From assembly GCF_000024405.1 (NCBI RefSeq), contig NC_013517.1:3627989-3691988 (forward strand): 64,000 nt of DNA, given 5' to 3'. This document shows, piece after piece, positions 38,307 through 44,061 of this stretch (position 1 is its first letter; each line of letters opens with the position of its first letter). The notes beneath the pieces were generated by a model. The model was not told the origin of the DNA and did not search any database. It was given only the letters and a program-made list of their open reading frames with translations. Both the position numbers and the translations under genes were made by a program. This DNA comes from Sebaldella termitidis ATCC 33386. GTDB taxonomy: Bacteria > Fusobacteriota > Fusobacteriia > Fusobacteriales > Leptotrichiaceae.

Positions 38307-38342
38307 TTGACAAGATTAGATATTATCTATAATATTTAATCT
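38307..38342 (+). promoter_or_regulatory. Promoter of the hydrogenase operon, covered by a palindrome
   Basis: TTGACA (38307-38312), a short 15-base spacer, TATAAT (38328-38333). An inverted repeat fills the spacer and -10: AGATTAGATATTA (38313-38325), TCTA, TAATATTTAATCT (38330-38342), with 12 of 13 pairs. The short spacer and overlapping palindrome suggest a regulated promoter whose regulator is unknown. Confidence 0.5.
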
Positions 38343-38431: not shown

Positions 38432-38505
38432 TTGTAAATATAGATATTAAATCAAATATTTGTGAAAAAATAAACTAAAATATCAAAATGAAAGGAGTGA
38501 TAATT

Positions 38506-38754
38506 TTGGAACTGGCGGTTTGCATAGGAAGCTCATGTCATTTGAAAAAATCAAGAGAAATTATCCAGTTAATTGAACAGGAAATCAAAGCTAATAAATT
38601 AGAAGATAAATTGGTTTTGGTAGGCTCTTTTTGTATGAATGAATGTTCGAATCACGGAGTTTGTATAAGATTTAATGATAAAAAATATTCATTAAATACA
38701 GAACAGATAAAAAGTTTTTTTGCCAAGGAAGTTCTCGGTATTTGTTATAATTAA
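38506..38754 (+). CDS. Thioredoxin-like [2Fe-2S] ferredoxin, 82 aa
   Basis: A small NuoE/HydC-like electron carrier domain. The four ligand cysteines are in VCIGSSCHLKKS (CxxxxC) and GSFCMNECSNHG (CxxxC), spaced as in thioredoxin-like [2Fe-2S] proteins. An ATG lies six codons upstream (38488), but it has no ribosome binding site. AAAGGAGTG lies 8 bases before TTG at 38506, giving the usual family start MELAVCIGSSCHLK, so TTG is chosen. First gene of the hydrogenase operon. It probably shuttles electrons to or from the sensory hydrogenase encoded next. Confidence 0.82.
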   Translation: MELAVCIGSSCHLKKSREIIQLIEQEIKANKLEDKLVLVGSFCMNECSNHGVCIRFNDKKYSLNTEQIKSFFAKEVLGICYN

Positions 38755-38802
38755 TCTGCTTTTTACCGGAAAATCCTGTTTTTGACAAGTAAGGAGAGAA
38801 AA

Positions 38803-40533
38803 ATGAGTTACATAAGCGTAAAAAGTTTAAATTGTAAAAACTGTTACAAATGCTTGAAATACTGTACGGTTAAGTCAATAAAATACAGAAATGACAAGGT
38901 CGAGGTTATTGATGAAAAATGTATTTTATGCGGCGAGTGTATAAATATATGCCCTCAGGAAGCTAAAAAAGTAATAAGTGACATTGATAAAGTAAAAGAA
39001 TTAGTAACAAATAAGAATGTGAAAAAAATAGTAAGTATCGCACCATCATATATATCAGCCTATCCTGATAAAAATAAACTGGTTTCCGGATTATTAAAAT
39101 TAGGATTTGACGGTGTAGAAGAAACAGCAGTCGGAGCTGCATATGTAACAGAAGAATATAAAAAATTAATTAATAAAATGGAAATGGACAATATATTAAC
39201 AAGCTGCTGCCCCACTATAAATCTGATGATATCAAAATACTCTCCGGAATTGATAAATAATCTGGCTCCTGTACTATCCCCTGTCTTAGTACATGGAAAA
39301 CTTATAAAAGAAAAATATGGTCCGGAAACATCTGTTATTTTTATAGGCCCTTGCTTATCAAAAATATATGAGATAAATCAAGATGAAGACAGCAGAAATG
39401 TTGATTTTGCAATAACATTTCAGGATTTGGACAAATGGCTCCTTGATGAAAATATAAATTTAGAGACCATTACACCAAAAGAATTTGATACGGACTCTCC
39501 GTATTCAAGAGTCTACCCTATCTCTCAGGGAATATTATATGATTTGAAAAATCATTTCAAAGATAAAGACAGCGGAGATAAAATCAGTAAATATGACTTA
39601 TTAAGTGTAAGCGGCCTGAAGGATGTAGAAAATATACTGAATGAAATCTCAAACGGAAAAATCAAAAATGTCTTTATAGAGATCAACGCCTGCTCCAATG
39701 GCTGTGTAAACGGTCCAATGATGCCCAAGAACAGGACTTCTGTTTTGGAAGACACTATCAAAATAAAAAGATATGCTGAGGAAATTAAAGATAACGAAAA
39801 TAAGTTTGATCGAAATGATTTGAATAAGAAATTTTTTAATGAAAAAATAGAAGATTTTATTCCGGGCGAAGATAAATTAAAGGATATACTTATGCAGATA
39901 GGGAAAATCAAAAAAGACGACGAGCTGAACTGCGGAAGCTGCGGCTATGATACATGCCGGGATAAGGCAATAGCTGTTTATCAGGGAAAAGCAGAGCTTT
40001 ATATGTGCCTGCCCTATATAAGTGAAATGGCTCAAAGCCTTTCTAATGTCACTTTGAATGTTACTCCTAATTATATTATAGCAGTGAATGAAGATATGAA
40101 AATTAAAGAGTTTAATCTGGCAGCACAAAAATTATTTAAAATTTCCAGAAATGATGCACTGAATAAGTATTTATTTGATTTTATAGATCCTTCTGATTTT
40201 GTAAAAGTATTTGAAACTCAAAAAGATATAAGAAAGAAAAAGGTAAGATATGAAAATTTGGGAATTACTATAATACAGACAATAGTATATGTCAAAGATC
40301 AGAAAATAGCCATGGGAATATTAAAAAATATAACAGAAGAAGAAGAAAACGTAGAAAAAATGTATAACTTAAAATTAGATACGGTTAATATGGCACAAAA
40401 TGTTATTAATAAGCAAATGAGAGTAGCTCAGGAAATAGCAAGCTTATTAGGGGAAACTACTGCCGAAACCAAAGTTACACTGAATAAATTAAAAAAATTG
40501 ATAATAAATGAAGGAAATAATATAAATGAATAA
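38803..40533 (+). CDS. Sensory-type [FeFe] hydrogenase with PAS domain (HydS-like), 576 aa
   Basis: Domains in order: two [4Fe-4S] clusters (Cys 11, 14, 17, 21 and 40, 43, 46, 50), then the [FeFe] H-cluster domain. H-cluster motifs are TSCCP (133-137), FIGPCLSKIYE (about 183) and NACSNGCVNGP (about 304). An additional Fe-S domain (CGSCGYDTCRDKA, about 380-415) and a PAS domain (about 425-530) follow. Ahead of the C-terminus is a helical tail (about 535-576). This architecture is that of group C, putative H2-sensing hydrogenases. Both cysteines of TSCCP are present. The start is the ATG with AAGGAG 7 bases upstream. It overlaps the phosphatase gene by 8 bases. Maturases HydE, HydF and HydG are not in the window, so they must be encoded elsewhere. 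Function as sensor rather than catalyst is an inference. Confidence 0.85.
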   Translation: MSYISVKSLNCKNCYKCLKYCTVKSIKYRNDKVEVIDEKCILCGECINICPQEAKKVISDIDKVKELVTNKNVKKIVSIAPSYISAYPDKNKLVSGLLKLGFDGVEETAVGAAYVTEEYKKLINKMEMDNILTSCCPTINLMISKYSPELINNLAPVLSPVLVHGKLIKEKYGPETSVIFIGPCLSKIYEINQDEDSRNVDFAITFQDLDKWLLDENINLETITPKEFDTDSPYSRVYPISQGILYDLKNHFKDKDSGDKISKYDLLSVSGLKDVENILNEISNGKIKNVFIEINACSNGCVNGPMMPKNRTSVLEDTIKIKRYAEEIKDNENKFDRNDLNKKFFNEKIEDFIPGEDKLKDILMQIGKIKKDDELNCGSCGYDTCRDKAIAVYQGKAELYMCLPYISEMAQSLSNVTLNVTPNYIIAVNEDMKIKEFNLAAQKLFKISRNDALNKYLFDFIDPSDFVKVFETQKDIRKKKVRYENLGITIIQTIVYVKDQKIAMGILKNITEEEENVEKMYNLKLDTVNMAQNVINKQMRVAQEIASLLGETTAETKVTLNKLKKLIINEGNNINE

Positions 40534-41704
40534 ACAAAAATATGTGGATGTCAGTTATAAAAGCCTGAATAAATATACAGAAGAGCTTTGCGGAGACCGG
40601 GTAGAAATAGTAAATACGGAAAACGGTGTAATTATTGTTTTATCAGACGGATTGGGAAGCGGTGTAAAGGCTAATATATTGTCAACATTAACTTCTAAAA
40701 TTATTTCCACAATGATGAAAGAAGGCGCTGACATAGAAGATACTGTTGATACCATAGTAAAAACCCTTCCTGTATGCAGTGTAAGAAATCTGGCATATTC
40801 TACTTTTTCTATTTTACAGATCTCCCATCAGGGTGAAGTCTATCTGGTAGAATTTGATAATCCGGGCTGTATTTTTATAAAGGATGGGAAATTAAGCAGG
40901 ATTGAATATACTCTAAGAGAAATTGCCGGAAAAAATATTAAGGAAGCAAGATTTAATGTTAATGAATCGGATGAACTGCTGTTAATAAGTGACGGTGTAG
41001 TTTATGCCGGAGTCGGAGCACTGCTGAACTTAGGATGGAGCTGGGATAATGTAGCAGATTTTGCTGTCGAAAAATTCAAACAGGAAAAGACATCGGCAAG
41101 AATGACATCTCTGCTGTCAGAGGCATGTGCCGACCTTTATATGAATGAACCCGGCGATGATACTACAGTAGTAACTGCAAAGATTATCCCCAAAAAAGTC
41201 GTTAATATATTTTCCGGTCCGCCCGAGAGGATAGAAGATGATGAAAGAGCCGTTTCTGATTTTATGCAAAATGAAGGATTAAAAGTAGTATGCGGCGGAA
41301 GTACAGCGAATATTACAAGCAGAATTCTAAAAGAAAGTATAACAACTGAATTAAACTATATAAATCCGAATATTCCTCCAATTGCCAGAATAAAAGGAAT
41401 AGATCTGGTGACAGAGGGTGTATTGACACTTAGAAAGGCTTTGGAAATAATAAAAAAATATTTGGATGATCCCACGGAAAAAATAAACATAAATCTGATA
41501 GATGAGTCTCATGGTGCATCATTACTGGCTAAAATACTAATGGAGGAATGCACTCATTTACATTTATTTATCGGAAAAAAAATTAATCCGGCACATCAAA
41601 ATCCTAATCTTCCTGTTGATTTAAGCATAAAGCTGAGATTATTAGAAGATTTATACAATGTAATGGAAAAAGCCGGAAAGGTAGTTGAACGCAAATATTA
41701 TTAA
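40526..41704 (+). CDS. SpoIIE/PP2C-type serine phosphatase, 392 aa
   Basis: The N-terminal half (about 1-215) is a PP2C-like phosphatase of the SpoIIE group. It has metal-binding aspartates in VIIVLSDGLGSGVKANIL (about 37-48), LLISDGVVYAG (about 155) and NEPGDDTTVVTAKI (about 208). The C-terminal half (about 220-392, from FSGPPERIEDDERA) is a conserved extension of these hydrogenase-linked phosphatases, with no function I can name. It starts inside the end of the hydrogenase gene (ATG 8 bases before its stop), so translation is coupled. It likely carries the redox or H2 signal from the PAS hydrogenase to a phosphoprotein target not seen here. Confidence 0.85.
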   Translation: MNKQKYVDVSYKSLNKYTEELCGDRVEIVNTENGVIIVLSDGLGSGVKANILSTLTSKIISTMMKEGADIEDTVDTIVKTLPVCSVRNLAYSTFSILQISHQGEVYLVEFDNPGCIFIKDGKLSRIEYTLREIAGKNIKEARFNVNESDELLLISDGVVYAGVGALLNLGWSWDNVADFAVEKFKQEKTSARMTSLLSEACADLYMNEPGDDTTVVTAKIIPKKVVNIFSGPPERIEDDERAVSDFMQNEGLKVVCGGSTANITSRILKESITTELNYINPNIPPIARIKGIDLVTEGVLTLRKALEIIKKYLDDPTEKININLIDESHGASLLAKILMEECTHLHLFIGKKINPAHQNPNLPVDLSIKLRLLEDLYNVMEKAGKVVERKYY

Positions 41705-41719
41705 AAAGAAGGAATCTAT

Positions 41720-43186
41720 ATGGATGAAATTAAAGATGCTGATCAGATAAAAAATGAAGTCTTACAGAAAACAGCAGAATACGCTTTTAAAAATATACTG
41801 GCAGAAAAAGCAGAAGATATACCGTTTGAAATAATATCCGGAATAAAGCCTCAATTCAGATGCTGTGTTTACAGGGAAAGAGAAATCATAAGACAAAGAG
41901 TCAGACTGTCAATGGGGCAGCTTCCGAGAGATGCGGTATATACAGAATTAGAGCCTACCCAGGTAGTACATGTAATACCCTGTGCATGTGAAGGATGCCC
42001 GATTGTTAGATTTACAGTTACAGATAACTGCCAAAACTGTTTAACAAAGAAGTGTATCAAATCTTGCGCATTTGGAGCTATTTCAGCTACCAAAAAAGGT
42101 GCATATATAGATAAACAGTTATGTAAAAAATGCGGTAAATGTGTGGCAAGCTGCCCTTATCATGCGATAGTAGATATAGAAAGACCGTGTAAAAAGTCGT
42201 GTCCTGTGGATGCAATAGAAATAGACGAAAACGATATAGCAATAATAGACAGCACAAAATGTATTAATTGCGGACTCTGCATAAATAACTGCCCTTTCGG
42301 AGCCATTTCCGATGTTTCCATGATGACAAATGTTATTAATACTTTACTTACTAATGATAATGTTTATGCTATGATAGCTCCGGCAATAGAAGGCCAGTTC
42401 GGACCTGATGCATCGATAGGGGTAATAAAAAACTGGATTAAAAAGCTGGGCTTTAAGGATGTATATGAAGTAGCCTTAGGAGCTGATGCAGTAGCATACA
42501 GAGAAGCAGAGGAATTATCGGAAAATTTTAAAAACGGGAAAAAAATGACTTCATCATGCTGTCCCAGTTTTGTAAATTTAATATCTAAATATTATGGTAA
42601 TTTAGTCGAAAATATATCGACAACAATTTCTCCAATGGTTGCTACAGCACGCCTGATAAGAGAAAAGGATCCTGAAGCTGTCACAGTATTTATAGGTCCC
42701 TGCGTTACCAAAAAAAATGAAGCATTGAGCCTGTATATAAAAGAAGTTAACTATGTTATTACTTTTGAGGAGCTGGCAGCTATGTTTGCAGGGAAAAATA
42801 TAGACTTATCTGCCGGTGAATGTGATGAAAATTCGGCAACCAGCTATGGAAAAGGCTTTGCCAAATCAGGCGGAGTTGCTGCTGCGGTGTTAAAAGTACT
42901 GGAAGAAAAAGGAATAAACGAGGACATAAAAATATTAAACTGCAACGGAATCGATGAATGTAAAAAAGCATTGCTGATGTTAAAAGCCGGAAGACTGAAA
43001 GAAGACTTCATAGAAGGCATGTCCTGTGTTCACGGATGCTTAGGAGGTCCTGTAAATCTAAAAGCTGTAAATGAATCCAGAAAAACATTTGATAAATATC
43101 AAAAAAATCAAAATGATAATATCTTAAAAAACAATGTCTCAAAAAAATTGGACACAATAGATATTCATAAGGTATCTAAAACTTAA
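41720..43186 (+). CDS. [FeFe] hydrogenase, group-B-like, 488 aa
   Basis: After a unique N-terminal region (about 1-85) come cysteine-rich cluster-binding segments: CACEGCPIVRF, then NCQNCLTKKCIKSC, CKKCGKCVASCPYHAI, CKKSCPVDAIE and CINCGLCINNCPFGAI (about 93-198). The H-cluster domain has SSCCPSFVNLI (about 275), FIGPCVTKKNEAL (about 325) and MSCVHGCLGGPVNL (about 435). These variants fit the poorly studied group B of [FeFe] hydrogenases rather than the prototypic group A. The ribosome binding site is AAGGA, 6 bases from ATG. It closes the four-gene operon. It may produce or consume H2 under control of the sensor upstream; this is inference. Confidence 0.87.
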   Translation: MDEIKDADQIKNEVLQKTAEYAFKNILAEKAEDIPFEIISGIKPQFRCCVYREREIIRQRVRLSMGQLPRDAVYTELEPTQVVHVIPCACEGCPIVRFTVTDNCQNCLTKKCIKSCAFGAISATKKGAYIDKQLCKKCGKCVASCPYHAIVDIERPCKKSCPVDAIEIDENDIAIIDSTKCINCGLCINNCPFGAISDVSMMTNVINTLLTNDNVYAMIAPAIEGQFGPDASIGVIKNWIKKLGFKDVYEVALGADAVAYREAEELSENFKNGKKMTSSCCPSFVNLISKYYGNLVENISTTISPMVATARLIREKDPEAVTVFIGPCVTKKNEALSLYIKEVNYVITFEELAAMFAGKNIDLSAGECDENSATSYGKGFAKSGGVAAAVLKVLEEKGINEDIKILNCNGIDECKKALLMLKAGRLKEDFIEGMSCVHGCLGGPVNLKAVNESRKTFDKYQKNQNDNILKNNVSKKLDTIDIHKVSKT

Positions 43187-43225
43187 GATATTTTTACTAT
43201 TCTTTTATTAAAGACTGTGCAGAAG

Positions 43226-43265
43226 AAAAGCTTTCCAGTTTTTACACCGGAAAGCTTTTTCTTTT
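43226..43265 (+). terminator. Terminator of the hydrogenase operon (bidirectional)
   Basis: A perfect 11-bp stem (AAAAGCTTTCC at 43226-43236, GGAAAGCTTTT at 43249-43259) with a 12-base loop and a T-rich tail. It lies between convergent genes. Confidence 0.85.
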
Positions 43266-43299
43266 TACTGACTTTTTTATACAGCATTCTTATAATATT

Positions 43300-44061
43300 T
43301 TATTCCATATAAGAAACATCTCCTACTTTGACAAGAGTATATACTCCGTTTTGAACTTTTACAATAGTAAGACTGCAATTCCCTATACTCTCTCCCTTAT
43401 ACTGCTCAGGAACATATATAGATAAAATAGTAGGAATTTCACTCCCGTGAGAAACAATAAGTGCATTTCCTCCGCCCTTCATTTCTGTTTCTTTTACCAT
43501 CTGTTCAACTGCTTCTTTTGAACGCTTTATTATAGCATCATAGTTTTCGGCTGTTTGTGTAGGATCATTTTTAGCTATTGCATTAGCCATTTCTTCATCA
43601 GTCATAGCTGCTGTAAGCTCTTCCCATGTTGACCAGTCTGCCTTAAATTCTATACCTTTTTCTTTAAACAGCGGTGTCCATAAATCAGCATCATCCCGTC
43701 CTTCATATCCGCCGTATCCCCATTCACGAAGTCCTGTAAGCTCTTTTATTTCCAACTTTCCGTTTTTATTTTCAGACAGGATTATTTTTGCAGTAGAACG
43801 TGCTCTTCCCATATCACTTGAATATGCTGTACGAAAAACAACATTTTTCAATCCTTTCCCGGCCTTTTCAGCCTGTGAAATCCCTACATCGGTTAACGGA
43901 CTGTCAGCCCATCCCTGAACCTGACCTGTAGTATTAAACATTGTCTTTCCATGTCTTATAAAATAAAGATAAACTGCTTTATCCTGCTTGTCAGTCTTCC
44001 CATAAAGAATTGAAGCTGTAAGGATAAAAATAAACAGAACTAAAAATGACTTTTTTTTCAT
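43300..44061 (-). CDS. Exported histidine phosphatase (phosphoglycerate-mutase-like), 253 aa
   Basis: It has an N-terminal signal peptide (about 1-21, ending SILYG). The histidine phosphatase domain has the catalytic FIRHGKTMFNTTG (about 34-46), the second arginine in SSDMGRARSTA (about 101), the acid-base LREWGYGGYEG (about 126-136) and the second histidine in ALIVSHGSEIPT (about 206). A phosphatase acting outside the cytoplasm is likely, on an unknown phosphorylated substrate. It follows the 6-phospho-beta-glucosidase gene by 37 bases with no terminator seen, so it may be read with the bgl operon. The ribosome binding site is GGAGG. Confidence 0.85.
   Translation of the reverse strand: MKKKSFLVLFIFILTASILYGKTDKQDKAVYLYFIRHGKTMFNTTGQVQGWADSPLTDVGISQAEKAGKGLKNVVFRTAYSSDMGRARSTAKIILSENKNGKLEIKELTGLREWGYGGYEGRDDADLWTPLFKEKGIEFKADWSTWEELTAAMTDEEMANAIAKNDPTQTAENYDAIIKRSKEAVEQMVKETEMKGGGNALIVSHGSEIPTILSIYVPEQYKGESIGNCSLTIVKVQNGVYTLVKVGDVSYME

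Follow-up and report, generated by a model that had tools for sequence, protein, structure and literature searches.

The hfs locus of Sebaldella termitidis

The stretch analyzed here comprises 64,000 nucleotides of Sebaldella termitidis ATCC 33386 (NC_013517.1, positions 3,627,989 to 3,691,988; hereafter the window), and its forward strand carries four consecutive intact genes which, according to open reading frame and domain analysis, follow the order hfsA-hfsB-hfsC-hfsD (Table 1). Judged by gene content, gene order and promoter and terminator signals, this is the hfsABCD operon in complete form, and the four genes are one predicted transcription unit with a promoter-like site at the 5′ end and a strong terminator at the 3′ end. 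This bears out an earlier reading of the sequence (the original prediction), which had placed a ferredoxin, a PAS-bearing hydrogenase, a phosphatase and a second hydrogenase in one operon. The 8-base overlap between hfsB and hfsC (40526-40533) that it described is also present and is normal for the operon, since 49 of 77 homologous hfsB-hfsC pairs overlap, most commonly by 4 bases. Chance is excluded as a concern because all domains are recognized and the gene order recurs in many genomes.

The two outer genes largely bear the labels first given to them. The longest hfsA frame opens with an ATG at 38488, but the TTG at 38506 favored in the original prediction is the better start, as this codon and its Shine-Dalgarno sequence are conserved in a sister genome (G088), where the position of the upstream ATG reads CTG. 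The description of HfsA as a thioredoxin-like ferredoxin starts from a Pfam match below the threshold (19 versus 24.8 bits), but the cysteine spacing Cx4C...Cx3C and one homologue above the threshold (38 bits) back the label. For HfsD, which had been called group-B-like, the assignment is firm, with a Fe_hyd_lg_C match at 3e-63 and a score of 595.4 bits against NCBIfam TIGR04105 (group B1; curated cut-off, 450), and its H-cluster cysteines and proton-relay Cys are invariant in 23/23 aligned sequences.

Table 1. Features of the hfs operon, in window coordinates
Feature	Position	Strand	Remarks
Sigma-70-like promoter	38307..38335	+	TTGACA (38307) then TATAAT/TAATAT; consensus match, kept in sister genome G088
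Shine-Dalgarno sequence of hfsA	38491-38499	+	AAAGGAGTG; from sequence, kept in G088
hfsA	38506..38754	+	Small thioredoxin-like [2Fe-2S] ferredoxin; TTG start
hfsB	38803..40533	+	PAS-bearing [FeFe] hydrogenase, putative H2/redox sensor; 576 residues
H-cluster domain of HfsB	39028..39717	+	Residues 76-305
C-terminal [4Fe-4S] domain of HfsB	39925..40014	+	PF04060; residues 375-404
PAS domain of HfsB	40063..40338	+	Residues about 421-512
Signal tail of HfsB	40402..40473	+	Residues 534-557, VINKQMRVAQEIASLLGETTAETK; proposed HfsC contact
hfsC	40526..41704	+	SpoIIE/PPM-type Ser/Thr phosphatase with unnamed C-terminal domain; 392 residues
Switch helices alpha-1/alpha-2 of HfsC	40661..40765	+	Residues 46-80
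C-terminal alpha/beta domain of HfsC	41192..41701	+	Residues 223-392
hfsD	41720..43186	+	Group B1 [FeFe] hydrogenase; 488 residues
Intrinsic terminator after hfsD	~43222..43268	+	Hairpin and T-tract; fold z = -4.3

A conserved HfsB tail accompanies HfsC

HfsB closes with a C-terminal stretch, VINKQMxVAQEIASLLGETTAETK, whose conservation equals that of the cluster ligands, with 13 of 24 tail positions invariant across 53 HfsB proteins. In the predicted structure, this end of the protein forms a helix-kink-helix of low confidence. We searched a profile of the nearly invariant 42-residue tail against 98 Fusobacteriota genomes and obtained 18 copies (E < 1e-20), located in precisely the 17 genomes that also encode HfsC; the other 81 contain none, and one extra match (E = 0.007) was judged to be due to chance. 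Each of the 18 copies shares its strand with the HfsC match and lies 18-47 nucleotides upstream of it. Kinship among the fusobacterial genomes inflates the nominal significance of this strict association, but the association itself is exact.

Fourteen of the copies sit on PAS hydrogenases, while the remaining four are found on stand-alone PAS proteins (~161-171 residues) without a hydrogenase domain, indicating that the constant partner of HfsC is the PAS domain with its tail and not the hydrogenase domain. These four loci (L121, L122, L123 and L124, in genomes G063, G045, G040 and G047) share a five-gene order of a thioredoxin-like ferredoxin, the tailed PAS protein, HfsC, a second thioredoxin-like ferredoxin and a group B-like [FeFe] hydrogenase. 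In L121 and L122 only, a bifunctional adhE lies directly upstream of the set, echoing the published genetic link between hfsB and adhE. The four form one divergent clade in the HfsC tree (100/100, branch 1.56), and the hydrogenase domain may have been either lost or gained in the change between the two arrangements.

Two further observations concern the reach of the tail. At L097 (4198-5925), a second tailed HfsB-type PAS hydrogenase lies upstream of a normal hfsA-hfsB-hfsC set, and this is the sole tail copy among the fetched loci that does not adjoin HfsC. HfsB relatives of 431 and 439 residues at L051 and L070, which are group D-like and have no PAS domain, possess neither the tail nor a neighboring HfsC, a pattern suggesting that only proteins paired with HfsC bear the tail. 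Given its conservation and its placement, the tail probably carries the signal from the sensor to the phosphatase.

HfsC has a PP2C core without a linker and an unnamed second domain

HfsC matches the Pfam family SpoIIE (5e-12), and its metal-binding Asp residues 24, 41, 156, 211 and 212 are invariant in 61/61 sequences. In the AlphaFold model (predicted local distance difference test score [pLDDT], 91), the PP2C fold starts at about residue 6, leaving no N-terminal linker helix, and the closest solved folds are those of SpoIIE, RsbU and RsbX. In phosphatases of the RsbU/RsbP type, coiled-coil linkers fused to the N-terminus drive the enzyme via helices alpha-1 and alpha-2 (PMC12143880). The corresponding switch region (residues 46-90) is the most conserved segment of HfsC, with a mean identity of 0.74.

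The second half of HfsC is an alpha/beta domain with the motifs CGGTTANI, GVDLVTEG and VNxAHQNPxLP, which matched no Pfam family and no PDB sequence. Foldseek with the whole protein returned only PP2C folds among the 50 matches listed. Matches of the domain to asparaginase, phosphoheptose isomerase and I-DmoI are at chance level, and we do not believe them. Within the Fusobacteriota, the domain occurs only as part of full-length HfsC, four other matches at E ~0.01 being judged chance.

HfsB combines an intact H-cluster site with a PAS domain

In HfsB we found two N-terminal 4Fe-4S sites, the H-cluster domain (Fe_hyd_lg_C, 7e-52), a C-terminal Cys-motif cluster (FeS PF04060, 5e-10) and the PAS domain (1e-6), and from this architecture we infer that it is a group C (M2f) sensory [FeFe] hydrogenase. 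The H-cluster ligands C136, C184, C297 and C301 are invariant in 53/53 relatives. The window protein also retains the proton-relay Cys (C135), the start of the proton pathway, and for this reason may be catalytically competent. Among the 53 aligned HfsB proteins, a sample biased towards relatives of the window operon, this position is Cys in 31 and Ala in 13, compared with 17% Cys for sensory [FeFe] hydrogenases generally (PMC10055695). The Met residues of catalytic enzymes are absent: Gly182 and Asn295 occupy the positions of CpI M353 and M497 in a motif-based comparison.

Neighborhoods of hfsC and origin of the operon

A scan of 84,980 genomes yielded at least 570 confirmed HfsC relatives, so that the hfs operon itself is ordinary; the best 80 of these loci are nearly all from Bacillota. 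Among the 73 clostridial loci with enough sequence, 70 have hfsB as the gene immediately before hfsC, and an HfsA homologue is found near hfsB in 42/73 with enough upstream sequence. HfsD lies downstream in 27/72 loci, and 21/60 have a group A hydrogenase set. These counts identify HfsB-HfsC as the constant pair, whereas the hydrogenase that it serves varies. The split reading frames of hfsB at L053 and of hfsD at L061 (two frames each) may reflect an operon that is decaying or mis-assembled.

In the HfsC tree, the two Sebaldella copies are nested among clostridial sequences (clade support, 100/99) and separate from the other two lineages of fusobacteria, which suggests that the operon was acquired from gut clostridia. 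HfsC of Tepidanaerobacter and Thermoanaerobacterales is 48-49% identical to the window protein. Within the genus, hfsC was found in two of four genomes; of the remaining two, one is an incomplete assembly.

Maturases and partner-switching genes in the host genome

The host genome (4,486,650 bases, with a chromosome of 4,418,842 base pairs; 99.98% complete) encodes HydE, HydF and HydG, and the objection that the H-cluster might not be made for want of maturases therefore fails. It contains four [FeFe] hydrogenase catalytic genes, two in the hfs operon and two in group A sets with NuoF-/NuoE-like subunits.

The original prediction had also pointed to an anti-sigma or STAS-type target of the phosphatase. 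The genome does encode a single STAS protein (L130:3421-3906), which has a DSTFLG motif and is unlinked to the hfs operon, but no RsbW-sized kinase, all three HATPase_c_2 matches lying in sensor-kinase frames of 470-511 residues. The lack of an RsbW-type kinase makes a standard partner-switch target doubtful in this host. A SpoIIE phosphatase with a receiver domain (486 residues) is encoded at L114 (G000:C1:1885000-1893000) and is a likelier partner of the lone STAS protein than HfsC. At L115 (G000:C1:1311000-1319000), there is a cluster with FHA-like and PP2C proteins, and the same genome encodes a Hanks-type Ser/Thr kinase. A classical anti-sigma output is unlikely in the host, although the Hanks-type kinase encoded elsewhere tempers this judgment.

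Many other HfsC-bearing fusobacteria have small RsbW-like and STAS genes. In G055, G056, G058, G060 and G063 such pairs lie about 8-11 kb from hfsC, and in L120 and L121 their neighborhood includes a gene for an L21-like ribosomal protein. We considered a functional link between these pairs and hfs and judged the proximity to be synteny, since genomes that lack HfsC carry such pairs as well.

Leader and flanking sequence

An Rfam scan of the operon and its leader returned no RNA element. A Rex-like operator suspected by eye in the leader was rejected, as the palindrome is unconvincing and G088 does not conserve this part of the leader. Convergent with hfsD, on the reverse strand (43300-44061), lies a gene whose product belongs to the histidine phosphatase superfamily (branch 1) and has an N-terminus resembling a signal peptide.

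Discussion

The view of this arrangement as largely unexplored is not supported: hfsABCD is already known and the signaling idea already published, the operon having been described in Thermoanaerobacterium and a phosphatase link proposed earlier (PMC11837493, PMC6776011). Judged by published gene order and domains, the window operon resembles hfsABCD of Thermoanaerobacterium saccharolyticum and T. thermosaccharolyticum (PMC5707799, PMC11837493): in both, a serine phosphatase accompanies a PAS hydrogenase and a second [FeFe] hydrogenase, which belongs to group B. It differs in residing in a fusobacterium, probably after transfer from gut clostridia, and in that HfsA is recognizable here as a thioredoxin-like ferredoxin, whereas poor alignment to known proteins was reported there (PMC11837493). 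In Thermoanaerobacterium, deletion of hfsA or hfsB increases the ethanol yield ~1.8-fold, and strains without hfsB show higher hydrogenase activity and more adhE expression, the high-ethanol effect requiring hfsC and hfsD (PMC5707799). The gain in hydrogenase activity and ethanol yield upon hfsB loss is known solely from Thermoanaerobacterium and other thermophiles (PMC5707799). In Thermoanaerobacterium, others have thereby shown that hfsB acts as a regulator upstream of hfsC and hfsD, and these genetics are in line with the suggestion that the phosphatase output affects the second hydrogenase (PMC5707799).

Other systems share parts of this design. The group C cluster of Ruminococcus albus, proposed to serve H2 sensing, likewise pairs a PAS hydrogenase with a Ser/Thr phosphatase and is linked both to a further hydrogenase and to the control of alcohol dehydrogenase (PMC6776011); however, its co-transcribed hydrogenase is described as group A1 and the cluster as including an alcohol dehydrogenase gene, whereas the window has a group B enzyme and no adjacent adhE. 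RsbP and RsbU are also SpoIIE-type phosphatases in which a PAS or other sensor acts through helices on alpha-1/alpha-2 (PMC12143880), but in the hfs operon sensor and phosphatase are separate proteins, the phosphatase has an extra C-terminal domain, and the host genome offers no matching anti-sigma kinase. Sensory hydrogenases of the TmHydS type share the H-cluster and the additional C-terminal [4Fe-4S] cluster, with a PAS domain present in TmHydS, while window HfsB differs in retaining the proton-relay Cys.

We propose that HfsB and HfsC are the two parts of a split sensor-phosphatase: H2 or the redox state would act on HfsC by way of the PAS domain and the tail, and HfsC would in turn control H2 and ethanol flux; we assign this reading a probability of roughly 0.55. 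The H-cluster and Fe-S chain of HfsB would register H2 or electron pressure, with electrons possibly exchanged through HfsA, and the PAS domain would pass this state to the helical tail. PAS domain and tail might then supply in trans the linker that HfsC lacks, setting the alpha-1/alpha-2 switch, and HfsC would dephosphorylate a putative protein that limits H2 formation by HfsD, so that flux shifts between H2/acetate and ethanol. The parts that we infer are that HfsB touches HfsC directly, that H2 serves as the signal, and that HfsC has a substrate with this role. The link between sensor and phosphatase is strengthened relative to the original prediction by the one-to-one association of tail and HfsC. 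The metal ligands of the phosphatase and the H-cluster cysteines of both hydrogenases are intact, and the comparison of neighborhoods across fusobacteria and clostridia yielded both the constant HfsB-HfsC pair (70/73) and the exact tail-HfsC association (17/98 genomes).

Several observations weigh against this proposal. When hfsD is overexpressed in a T. thermosaccharolyticum strain lacking all four hfs genes, the phenotype matches that of the hfsB deletion (PMC11837493); HfsC is therefore not indispensable downstream. Moreover, the C-terminal [4Fe-4S] cluster of the related group D enzyme is not reduced by H2, which casts doubt on electrons simply being relayed to the PAS domain (PMC13104023). 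Model confidence for the tail is low (pLDDT about 58-79), and four loci retain the PAS-phosphatase pair without any sensor H-cluster. It is tempting to speculate that a shared PAS-tail/HfsC core, with the tail as linker in trans and the second half of HfsC as a new domain that binds a ligand or substrate, has been coupled to more than one input, namely the HfsB H-cluster or a ferredoxin-linked stand-alone PAS protein, an extended version that we hold more tentatively.

The same four loci, with their ferredoxins, stand-alone PAS protein, HfsC and hydrogenase, favor the alternative that the unit senses general redox state via PAS and Fe-S clusters, H2 binding at the H-cluster not being the signal. 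We consider this unlikely, because H-cluster ligands that are invariant in all 53 HfsB proteins argue against a vestigial site, and the PAS-only loci, being one divergent clade, may be a derived exception. Somewhat less probable still is that HfsB is mainly a working hydrogenase subunit: HfsA, HfsB and HfsD would exchange electrons with ferredoxin, and fine-tuning of this enzyme would be the sole task of the PAS domain and of HfsC. The proton-relay Cys, retained in the window protein and far more frequent among HfsB proteins than among sensory enzymes, points in this direction, as does a 2026 paper according to which HfsABC may form a functional hydrogenase (PMC13277313); yet total hydrogenase activity is higher once hfsB is deleted (PMC5707799), HfsB is missing the Met residues found in catalytic enzymes, and outside the cluster ligands the protein is most strictly conserved in its signaling tail and not in the active site. 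Partner switching, in which HfsC would dephosphorylate a STAS anti-anti-sigma factor and free a sigma factor for hydrogenase and adhE genes, has in its favor the folds nearest to HfsC, the DSTFLG-motif STAS protein of the host and the RsbW-like and STAS genes of other HfsC-bearing fusobacteria, but is improbable in a nearly complete genome that lacks an RsbW-sized kinase and has a receiver-domain SpoIIE phosphatase as the likelier STAS partner, all the more since RsbW/STAS pairs are present as well in fusobacteria that lack HfsC.

Taken together, the locus is a real, intact and known operon in a little-studied host group, and it provides a testable clue to the communication between sensor and phosphatase. 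New here are the tail-HfsC association, the stand-alone PAS variant, the linkerless HfsC with its unnamed domain, the absence of an RsbW kinase and the probable clostridial origin. Whether any [FeFe] hydrogenase senses H2, and how the signal is passed on, is an open question in the field, and a 2026 study of TamHydS called finding the interaction partner critical (PMC13104023). The tail-HfsC association names a candidate partner and a short contact segment that is open to mutation or in vitro tests, and the signaling chain is of practical value, as hfsB deletions raise the ethanol yield in thermophiles. If true, the split sensor-phosphatase would give the PAS-type [FeFe] sensory hydrogenases their missing signaling partner.

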